A stretch of 21,510 bases of DNA, from positions 1 through 21,510 of the IMG/VR virus record IMGVR_UViG_3300032304_001640, one strand, 5' to 3'. Shown here piece after piece: positions 11,208-21,510 of the stretch; position 1 is the stretch's first letter, and each line of letters starts with the position of its first letter. Below the pieces are notes generated by a model. That model was not told the origin of the DNA. It saw only the letters and a list, made by a program, of their open reading frames with translations, and made no database searches. The stretch comes from a virus. The translations under genes and the position numbers were made by a program.

Positions 11208-11215
11208 TACTTATC
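11208..11215 (-). promoter_or_regulatory. Variant late promoter before the 109-residue protein gene (GATAAGTA)
   Basis: The minus strand reads GATAAGTA, one base off GATAAATA, 7 nt before the ATG and just after terminator 11223-11248. The short gap predicts a nearly leaderless mRNA. Confidence 0.42.
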
Positions 11216-11220
11216 CGATA

Positions 11221-11248
11221 AAAAGATAGGGCCCAAAGACCCTATCTT
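11221..11248 (-). terminator. Rho-independent terminator after the giant fibre gene
   Basis: On the minus strand AAGATAGGG pairs with CCCTATCTT (9 bp) across an 8-nt loop, followed by further T residues to 11221. It lies 16 bp past the stop of the 1309-residue fibre gene. Confidence 0.82.
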
Positions 11249-11263
11249 ATTCGCACTTATTGC

Positions 11264-19928: not shown

Positions 19929-20516
19929 CTATAGATCCTTTTTGTTATTTATGCGGTCTAAGAAGGTTGACAAATCAACGTGTGTAAAATTTGGTATGGC
20001 ATTTAGCTCTACTACCGGTGCTGTGGTTGCTCCGCATACTCGTATAAATTGCGCTTCTGGGTGATCTTTTGCAATGCGACACAGTTGTTTGATCCAATTT
20101 CCGGTAAAAGTAGGCGGTGCATCCGTCTGTTTATAGAATTCTGTGCCAGCGTAAAGATTATTAATGGTATTATTTTCTGTAGGACCCATGTCAAAACCCA
20201 GCAGGTATATGTGAGTATGCCCGTCCTGTGCTGCTAGGCCGGTGGCAATAGGGCCAGAACTGAAACCAAAATATGGTTTAGGTACTACTTGGGCACCCAG
20301 ACCAGATATGGGTCTACGGGTATAAAATCTATGCTGAGCACTGTATCCAGATTCTTGTATGTGAGTGGCTATGGGCCTATCTGTGGATATCAACACGTTT
20401 GGAGTAAATTCTCTATATAGGGCGTTACAGCCGTAGACAGTGCCTAACAGTTGTAATTGCTGTAAATCAATACCTTGACGGCTGATGCCGTTACCTAACA
20501 CAAATGCTTGAGTCAT
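19929..20516 (-). CDS. Rossmann-like GNG-motif protein (DUF115/MptE-like?), distant paralogue of 7436-8098
   Basis: This 195-residue protein starts MTQAFVLGNGISRQGIDL, a glycine-rich GNGxSRxGxD loop after the first strand. It continues with TVYGCNALYREF, an ISTDRP strand with a conserved-looking Asp, HIQESGY, a central HIYLLGFDMG strand with Asp, and a C-terminal FIRVCGATT strand. The loop and Asp pattern recall DUF115/MptE-like and glycosyltransferase-type folds, which bind nucleotides or nucleotide-sugars; this is inference. The start is fixed by the conserved first strand, yet the ATG abuts a terminator hairpin and the only SD-like GGGGA lies in the stem. It sits inside the fibre cluster, and a role in modifying fibres or surface sugars is a hypothesis. 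Confidence 0.72.
   Translation of the reverse strand: MTQAFVLGNGISRQGIDLQQLQLLGTVYGCNALYREFTPNVLISTDRPIATHIQESGYSAQHRFYTRRPISGLGAQVVPKPYFGFSSGPIATGLAAQDGHTHIYLLGFDMGPTENNTINNLYAGTEFYKQTDAPPTFTGNWIKQLCRIAKDHPEAQFIRVCGATTAPVVELNAIPNFTHVDLSTFLDRINNKKDL
19946..19953 (-). promoter_or_regulatory. Late promoter of the 201-residue structural gene (CATAAATA)
   Basis: The minus strand reads CATAAATA inside the last codons of 19929-20516, 17 nt before the ATG at 19928. The leader contains AAAGGA. Confidence 0.68.
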
Positions 20517-20551
20517 AAAAAAATCCCCACAGTACTTATTGTGGGGATTTT
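20517..20551 (-). terminator. Strong terminator abutting the start codon of 19929-20516
   Basis: On the minus strand AAAATCCCCACA pairs with TGTGGGGATTTT (12 bp) around an 8-nt loop, followed by T residues to 20517, the base next to the ATG at 20516. It ends the 20568-21431 transcript. The loop contains most of AATAAGTA, a late-octamer variant. Confidence 0.88.
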
Positions 20552-20567
20552 AGGGGAACTACAAAAA

Positions 20568-21431
20568 TTACGAAGTAATCTTCTCAATCTGTGCCAACTC
20601 AAGTGTGCCATTTTGACCAGGCTGATCACTACCGTTGGCAGAAGTCCATGTGTCAACTTCAGCACCAGACTTGGCAAATGTGCTCTCGTCTGTGAAGAAA
20701 TTGGCAGCATACTCAATGTCATTGACCACTTGATCTGCATTCCAAACATCACCAGTGTTGGCACTACCGCCTGCGGCGCCACCGTTGAAGTCTTGTGCAA
20801 ATCGGTTGGTCAGCTTGCTGATATACACTTCTGTACTGTCGCCGCCAACTGCCATGGAAATACTCATGTTGCCCACTGTTGGAGTATTGCTGTCTGTGAG
20901 AACGCAAGTACCAACTAACAAGCCGGTACCGGTAGATGCTGCTGCAACTGTGGCTGTACAGGTAAAAATTGTACCAGCTGTGGCTCCAACAGGAGCACCC
21001 ATCTGTTGCCAGTTGGTTCCGCCTAAACTTAGAATCATGTAAGAGGCACCAACTACCATATCTTCATCATTCACAGTTGTGTTGCTCACAACTAAAAATT
21101 TATGAGCACCTTTTTGACGTATGATGCGACCTGTGGCAACACCTTGACCTGAACCGCTGGGCAGTGCAATGTTTACTTGGCAACTGACCACTGGAAATGA
21201 TGTTGAAGGTGCGCTGAGTACAGGAGCACCGCCAACTACGCCTGTGAATGGCACTGGTGATGTTGCTGGTGATGGCAATACTACTGTTGCTGTGTCCATT
21301 GATGTTGGTGCAGCAAATGGAGGATATGCTACGTCAACCAGAACAGATTGTGCTGTTGTACCTTGGTTGGTATTGTCATAGAAAATACCAGACATAGGTG
21401 AATTTTTTGCTATTTTAAGAGGACGTCCCAT
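20568..21431 (-). CDS. Virion structural protein, MGRPLKIAK family (287 residues)
   Basis: The N-terminus MGRPLKIAKNSPMSGIFYDN resembles a family of structural proteins in marine T4-like phages that begin MGRPL and often contain Gly/Thr/Val-rich repeats. The body has many short beta-like segments (GRIIRQKGAHKFLVVSN, ASYMILSLGGTNWQQMGAP, AGTIFTCTA). A C-terminal helical-looking part (EYAANFFTDESTFAKSGAEVD, ELAQIEKITS) follows a Gly/Ala linker. There is no signal peptide or membrane segment. A strong AAGGAG lies before the ATG and overlaps the stop of the upstream frame; a 12-bp terminator follows 17 bp after its stop. It may decorate the capsid or tail; the place is not known. Confidence 0.75.
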   Translation of the reverse strand: MGRPLKIAKNSPMSGIFYDNTNQGTTAQSVLVDVAYPPFAAPTSMDTATVVLPSPATSPVPFTGVVGGAPVLSAPSTSFPVVSCQVNIALPSGSGQGVATGRIIRQKGAHKFLVVSNTTVNDEDMVVGASYMILSLGGTNWQQMGAPVGATAGTIFTCTATVAAASTGTGLLVGTCVLTDSNTPTVGNMSISMAVGGDSTEVYISKLTNRFAQDFNGGAAGGSANTGDVWNADQVVNDIEYAANFFTDESTFAKSGAEVDTWTSANGSDQPGQNGTLELAQIEKITS

Positions 21432-21443
21432 TTTGTTTTCTCC

Positions 21444-21510
21444 TTAAAGAAGTCCGATGTGAGTTCTAGTCACTACGCGGTAGGGTTTAGTCTTCCGCAT
21501 AAAACGCCGA
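21444..21510 (-). CDS. C-terminal end of an upstream gene, cut by the right edge
   Basis: The minus strand is open from the window edge to a TAA at 21444-21446, ending ...FMRKTKPYRVVTRTHIGLL. Its stop merges with the AAGGAG of the next gene, the tight spacing usual here, so it is probably the tail end of the preceding structural gene. An isolated 18-residue peptide from the ATG at 21500 is less likely. The evidence is only 21 codons. Confidence 0.4.
   Translation of the reverse strand, partial: RRFMRKTKPYRVVTRTHIGLL

Follow-up and report, generated by a model that had tools for sequence, protein, structure and literature searches.

A conserved 35-bp hairpin between two genes of T4-like phages as a candidate terminator, ribosome-site lock and late promoter

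PeSLs (promoter-early stem-loops) pair an early sigma70-type promoter with a stem-loop and have been proposed as recombination joints between interchangeable genes. PeSL cassettes of T4-like phages are named in the part of PMC4503421 drawn on here, with Arbiol 2010 (evq006) and Comeau 2014 (evu129) given as titles. In the leader of T4 gene e, the lysozyme gene, a hairpin closes the ribosome site (SD) on long transcripts, and transcription from a late promoter around the 5ʹ arm yields a shorter RNA that lacks this arm and is translated, as described in the relevant portion of PMC3014915. According to the sections of PMC2988022 considered here, a hairpin also hides the SD on upstream-initiated RNA of I-TevI, I-TevII, I-TevIII, segB and Aeh1 mobE; some hairpins of the I-TevI kind have a late promoter within or adjoining them, and mobE and segF have intrinsic terminators near their starts. 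When the open-licence literature was searched by phrase for a promoter inside a terminator, nothing relevant was found.

The hairpin described here lies in a 21.5-kb virus record, the whole of which (21,510 nucleotides) was analysed and is called the window. The record carries T4-like virion genes (tail sheath, sheath stabilizer, head-tail adaptor, tail fibre-like). Judging from comparative sequence analysis, the 35 bp probably form one insulating junction in a T4-like phage, combining a terminator, an SD lock and a late promoter in the loop. Such a junction would share with PeSLs the joining of a promoter to a stem-loop terminator in the space between genes of T4-like phages. Unlike a PeSL, it has no sigma70-like site among those listed for its surroundings (20500–20620, minus strand); its promoter-like motif is of the late type and lies inside the loop, the stem contains the SD, and each contig carries the element a single time, at one gene pair. 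By analogy, the mechanism would be that of the T4 gene e and I-TevI leaders with a terminator added, the differences here being the placement of the putative late promoter in the loop and the fusion of the U-run to the AUG. In gene e, by contrast, the late promoter lies in the 5ʹ arm or upstream, and the portion of PMC3014915 cited describes no fusion of a U-run with the AUG. In mobE and segF, as far as those sections of PMC2988022 go, the terminator lies inside the coding region, whereas here terminator, SD lock and promoter would be one hairpin before the start codon.

Anatomy and conservation of the hairpin

The hairpin (20517–20551) is located on the minus strand between a gene of 287 aa and a gene of 195 aa (Table 1). 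The order along this strand is AAAATCCCCACA, ATAAGTAC and TGTGGGGATTTT, followed by TTT and then by the ATG at 20516–20514. The first-pass annotation had described a 12-bp stem whose T-run touches the ATG and an SD-like GGGGA within the stem, and both were found in place, the GGGGA being read from 20528 to 20524 within the 3ʹ arm. The loop has 8 nt (20539–20532), and the first A of the octamer AATAAGTA is at the same time the last base of the 5ʹ arm. This is the anatomy of an intrinsic terminator, with a G+C-containing stem and a U-run directly after it; the terminator scan missed the hairpin because four of its T had been absorbed into the stem. A 66-nt segment folded at −22.2 kcal/mol (z −5.75), which none of 200 shuffles equalled, and the RNA from the predicted start at 20527 showed no fold beyond that of shuffles (z −0.52). 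No Rfam family reached its gathering score on the hairpin, the low matches lying far under the cut-off.

Table 1. Features of the hairpin and its surroundings, in window coordinates
Feature	Position	Strand	Basis
Downstream gene, 195 aa, predicted Maf/CstII-type glycosyltransferase fold	19929..20516	-	
Seven-T run touching the ATG, candidate terminator U-tract that also spaces the SD from the AUG; upstream transcript predicted to end here	20517..20523	-	
3ʹ arm TGTGGGGATTTT, containing the ribosome site	20520..20531	-	sequence, fold
SD-like GGGGA, paired in read-through RNA and open in the predicted short RNA	20524..20528	-	folding
Predicted +1, leader of 11 nt	20527	-	T4 late-promoter spacing as given in the cited part of PMC1524935
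Late-promoter-like octamer AATAAGTA, core TAAGTA, in the loop	20533..20540	-	motif, conservation
5ʹ arm AAAATCCCCACA, anti-SD side, present only on read-through RNA	20540..20551	-	sequence, fold, covariation
Upstream gene, 287 aa, in the virion-gene region; transcript predicted to stop at the hairpin	20568..21431	-	
Freshwater-2 RNA (RF02980), leading the upstream gene and truncated where the window ends	21429..21510	-	

Relatives were collected by five protein-guided scans of viral contigs, in which loci were fetched by protein similarity, independently of the hairpin; in one scan, the best 80 of 585 relatives were kept. The downstream gene is encoded at 265 loci (the window and two cultured-phage records included), 263 with an ATG and 2 without a start codon in the contig. 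As many loci are repeat fetches of one contig, counting was done by distinct contexts of 195 nt (45 nt upstream plus 150 nt of the gene), which gave 123 contexts, 2 of them from cultured phages. The other 121 distinct contexts, all with the start codon, come from uncultured relatives, and every one of them contains the hairpin. In each of them, TANNTA ends 14–18 nt before the ATG with complementary arms on both sides (L209 needs a bulge) and the T-run is 5–8 long, whereas an A-run of at least 5 on the opposite side is present in only 14, indicating that the terminator, if it is one, points one way, toward the downstream gene.

Covariation was assessed in an ungapped set of one loop class, comprising 30 of its 31 distinct segments (L307 forced gaps and was dropped). 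Paired bases made up 99.1% of cells, and two-sided changes were observed in 7 of 11 pairs; the cells with two-sided changes numbered 35, compared to a shuffled mean of 8.8, and slid controls were at most 58% paired. The one-class set was used instead of a MAFFT alignment of all hairpins, in which the arms were misaligned and RNAalifold paired none. L306 and L307 have an unrelated stem, yet the same ATACATA loop, T-run and spacing; their proteins are 47% identical at the amino acid level to that of L075, with which they were retrieved. This hairpin is genuine, and its conservation is strong.

The octamer AATAAGTA occurs once in the window, with 0.88 occurrences expected, that is, alone at chance level. 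This, and the fact that intergenic terminators are common in these phages, would suit an ordinary terminator of the upstream gene that happens to abut the next start codon, its promoter match being due to chance. Other terminator-like hairpins in five records, however, mostly have loops of 3–6 nt, often UUCG-like, and none of them has TANNTA together with an abutting ATG, while the composite keeps its loop letters invariant in all 121 contexts. We consider an ordinary terminator very unlikely, and a chance origin was rejected because the composite is conserved with covariation, even though the octamer by itself is about as frequent as expected.

Uniqueness of the composite was examined in eleven contigs (G000–G004 and G014–G019; 1,499,806 bp) with 1562 ORFs, called crudely and greedily from ATG starts with at least 60 aa. 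The composite was present once per contig in ten of them, and the eleventh (G016) has one at the contig end before a cut gene. A run of five or more T touching the ATG was found at 12 of the 1562 ORFs, 9 of these being the composite hairpin. Of 1560 genes, 65 have a strong hairpin within the 50 nt before them, and the combination of a TANNTA loop, a T-run and the ATG was observed only at the downstream gene; a hairpin at G003 64613 contains a TANNTA match without a T-run terminator.

A DNA search gave no cultured phage, and a protein search gave three Pelagibacter phage records with the downstream gene. The two of these records that were examined, HTVC008M and Mosig, have no hairpin, and the gene is elsewhere in them, beside uvsY or near a gp59-like gene. 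The composite is also absent from six loci with partial matches (L142–L147), in which the upstream gene is followed by another gene; an ordinary UUCG terminator was found in three of these.

The loop motif and the late promoters of the clade

In T4, late promoters extend from −13 to −6 (PMC1524935), the T4-type box is TATAAATA with CTAAATA in Aeh1 (PMC1524935, PMC2988020), and T4 late promoters with single deviations from consensus are in use (PMC2988020), as stated in the passages of these papers cited here. Over the 121 contexts, T-A..T-A of the loop had zero entropy and the neighbouring bases varied. The centre was AG in 58 contexts, CA in 45, AA in 10, TA in 5 and AC in 3, the exact TAAATA core thus being present in 10 loops and a core one base off in 111, the window included. 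On the protein tree, the centre needs at least 17 changes, with T-A..T-A unchanged throughout. All five observed centres are AA or one step from AA, which has a probability of 0.0048 under equal states. The statement that the loop is never AA had held over the first 76 loci and was broken by the next set, which carried TTAAATA.

TAAATA is the late-promoter core of the clade, as expected of a gp55 phage. Before the ORFs of the eleven contigs, it occurred 99 times in sense versus 12 times in antisense orientation at 10–30 nt from the ATG, and 51 versus 2 times at 0–9 nt in noncoding upstream regions; of ten long contigs from relatives, nine gave a match to gp55 (phrog_234). The loop motif resembles a T4-type late promoter in its TA..TA core and in lying at nearly the same distance from the start codon as the clade's other late promoters. 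It differs in that its centre is one base off in most contexts and in that it sits in the loop of an RNA hairpin. Hairpins with TTAAATA and with CTAAGTA precede near-identical proteins (L179 and L168), suggesting that the two are mutually replaceable. No other TAAATA was found in the 300 nt before the element in any of the 117 contexts with that much sequence.

Within 30 nt, the CA variant was found 18 times in sense versus 4 times in antisense orientation, and the AC variant 19 versus 6 times; for AG, the counts were 22 versus 19, and only the 0–9 nt zone leaned toward sense (8 versus 1). A G stands just before TA in 21 of 91 late promoters of the clade and in none of the 121 loops. The off-consensus centre, the AG variant without sense enrichment elsewhere and the missing G would all fit a hairpin that only terminates and hides the SD, with TANNTA kept for a reason at the RNA level (recognition by a protein, or endoribonuclease cleavage at UA steps); cleavage within the loop would likewise separate the arms and free the SD arm. 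Such a reason is nevertheless unlikely in our view, considering that ten contexts have the exact promoter core TTAAATA, that the other centres are all a single step from AA, that the CA and AC variants are sense-enriched before other genes, and that a processing model presupposes transcripts that pass a strong terminator. A late promoter in the loop remains the preferred reading.

Predicted RNAs and proposed mechanism

When the T4 spacing is applied, +1 falls at 20527 and the predicted RNA is GGGAUUUUUUUAUG; the start and the 11-nt leader that had been proposed for this gene follow directly from the interval given in that part of PMC1524935. Over the 121 contexts, the predicted leader is 9–13 nt (10 nt in 72 and 11 nt in 38), and the predicted short RNA begins with GGG, AGG or GAG in 119. 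According to folding prediction, the SD is on average unpaired at 0.002 on RNA with both arms and at 0.717 on the short RNA. Its accessibility was greater on the short RNA in all 121 contexts, with the short-RNA value below 0.7 in 48 of them, so the earlier proposal that the SD is hidden on read-through RNA and exposed on loop-initiated RNA agrees with the prediction throughout. An SD paired on read-through RNA and free on hairpin-initiated RNA is the hallmark of the gene e and I-TevI leaders, and the likeness to gene e, as the cited portion of its source describes it, would extend to the short late RNA without the 5ʹ arm.

We propose the following mechanism. The hairpin and the U-run, by their anatomy and conservation, would bring late transcription of the upstream gene to an end as an intrinsic terminator. 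Any read-through RNA would carry both arms, by which the SD of the next gene is predicted to be closed and translation prevented. The loop, judging from its motif, spacing and invariance, would be a gp55-type late promoter from which RNA starts in the 3ʹ arm at GGGA or AGGA; with its 9–13 nt leader this RNA could not form the hairpin and would be translated. The glycosyltransferase-like downstream gene would thereby be expressed only late and independently of its neighbour. In gene e, as far as its source was drawn on, the hairpin keeps the gene silent on early transcripts, whereas here the upstream gene seems to have a late promoter of its own.

That the same 35 bp or so could stop one gene and start the next had been suggested for this site at the outset, and the idea gains comparative support from the hairpin, T-run and loop motif kept in all 121 contexts; from this conservation we infer termination, and initiation in the loop. 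Several points speak against such a junction. The RNA would have only a short leader that begins inside the SD and then runs into U5–8 with possible slippage; the SD accessibility on the short RNA is below 0.7 in the 48 contexts mentioned, no loop has the G before TA, and the consensus AA centre is as rare, and the commonest centre AG as free of sense enrichment elsewhere, as given above. The loop promoter is probably weak, being usually one base off consensus. A further reading, in which this widespread clade has fused terminator, late promoter (at the loop) and ribosome site (at the RNA start) in one covarying hairpin and the promoter, one base below consensus in most lineages, sets a low, strictly late dose of the glycosyltransferase that does not depend on the neighbour, stands at even chances in our judgment. 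If the junction works as proposed, one hairpin would stop one message, silence leakage and start the next, and to our knowledge it would be the most compact gene-to-gene insulator in phages. It would also offer a clean test case of how far the same bases can serve as promoter, terminator and ribosome site, and a small ready-made part for compact gene arrays.

Neighbouring genes, gene exchange and related sites

The model of the downstream protein (pLDDT 91.8) resembles a Maf glycosyltransferase (Z 12.8, rmsd 3.4, 165 aligned) and, less closely by Z, the CstII sialyltransferase (Z 10.3; Foldseek E 4.5e-4), indicating a protein that is glycosyltransferase-like by fold, although a common fold is no proof of the activity. 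The upstream protein gave a poor model (pLDDT 50.6). The freshwater-2 RNA scored 57.7 bits in the window, compared to a gathering score of 49.9, and was found exactly once in each of the eleven contigs, leading the upstream gene; in the contigs with positions compared, it lies about 0.8–0.9 kb before the hairpin. By eye, a TAAATA box stands just 5ʹ of freshwater-2 in most of the 77 distinct relatives listed. As freshwater-2 leads the upstream gene, mostly with this box, freshwater-2 and the composite hairpin would bracket one transcript. Its presence in all eleven contigs ties freshwater-2, an orphan cis-regulatory RNA, to a late gene of T4-like phages. Two RNA elements bracketing the same virion-region gene would add regulatory sense to a large uncultured phage clade.

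Gene exchange was assessed by ungapped comparison of the first 150 aa of the downstream protein with the last 150 aa of the upstream protein, excluding pairs at 7–8% downstream identity as frame-offset artefacts. Among 94 pairs more than 90% identical downstream, 28 were less than 70% identical upstream, which places the hairpin at a junction of exchange. In L022 and L178, for example, the identity is 97% downstream and 52% upstream; the 5ʹ arm and the loop differ, and the 3ʹ arm and the T-run are shared. In marking gene shuffling, with a breakpoint resolution coarser than a base, the hairpin is again like a PeSL. These data would be expected if the inverted repeat were a DNA-level exchange point that joins interchangeable genes by recombination, any role in expression being secondary. 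That account leaves unexplained the covariation, the invariant loop letters, the T-run touching the ATG and the fixed spacing; moreover, the junction is intergenic anyway, and an expression role is compatible with exchange. We hold a primary role in exchange to be most improbable, and the insulating junction remains the favoured explanation.

Several other features were noted in the same sequences. The contigs of L136, L171, L188, L190 and L221 are about 337–347 kb long, roughly twice the 157–182 kb of other contigs, and could be large phages or doubled assemblies. At 634–608 of the window (minus strand), inside the 434–793 ORF of the plus strand, there is a terminator-like hairpin, AAATCCACAT-CGATCAC-ATGTGGATTT, with a T-rich tail, and a similar one is present in G001. 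Orthologous genes (MKSIPIFIGF) at G002 161348 (minus strand) and G003 64613 (plus strand), in script coordinates, have a GCGCCGATA hairpin before them. Its 3ʹ arm comes to within 1 nt of the ATG and contains or abuts TAAATA, possibly a second fusion of promoter and hairpin.

The first-pass annotation had placed a late-octamer variant both in the loop and at 11208. It holds for the loop, which carries AATAAGTA; at 11208 the sequence is GATAAGTA instead, only 7 nt ahead of the ATG with which the 11200 gene starts, and it follows a conventional terminator with a UUUG loop (window 11208–11250, minus strand). Again with the AG variant, GATAAGTA may mark a leaderless late start of the 11200 gene. 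Among the 1562 ORFs of the eleven contigs, the TAAATA box ends at most 9 nt from the ATG in 102, with peaks at 5, 7 and 4 nt; window 4262 (plus strand) is an example of such a box. An SD was found in 1 of these 102 ORFs versus 117 of 148 with the box at 10–30 nt, and the T4 spacing predicts that leaderless late mRNAs are routine in the clade.
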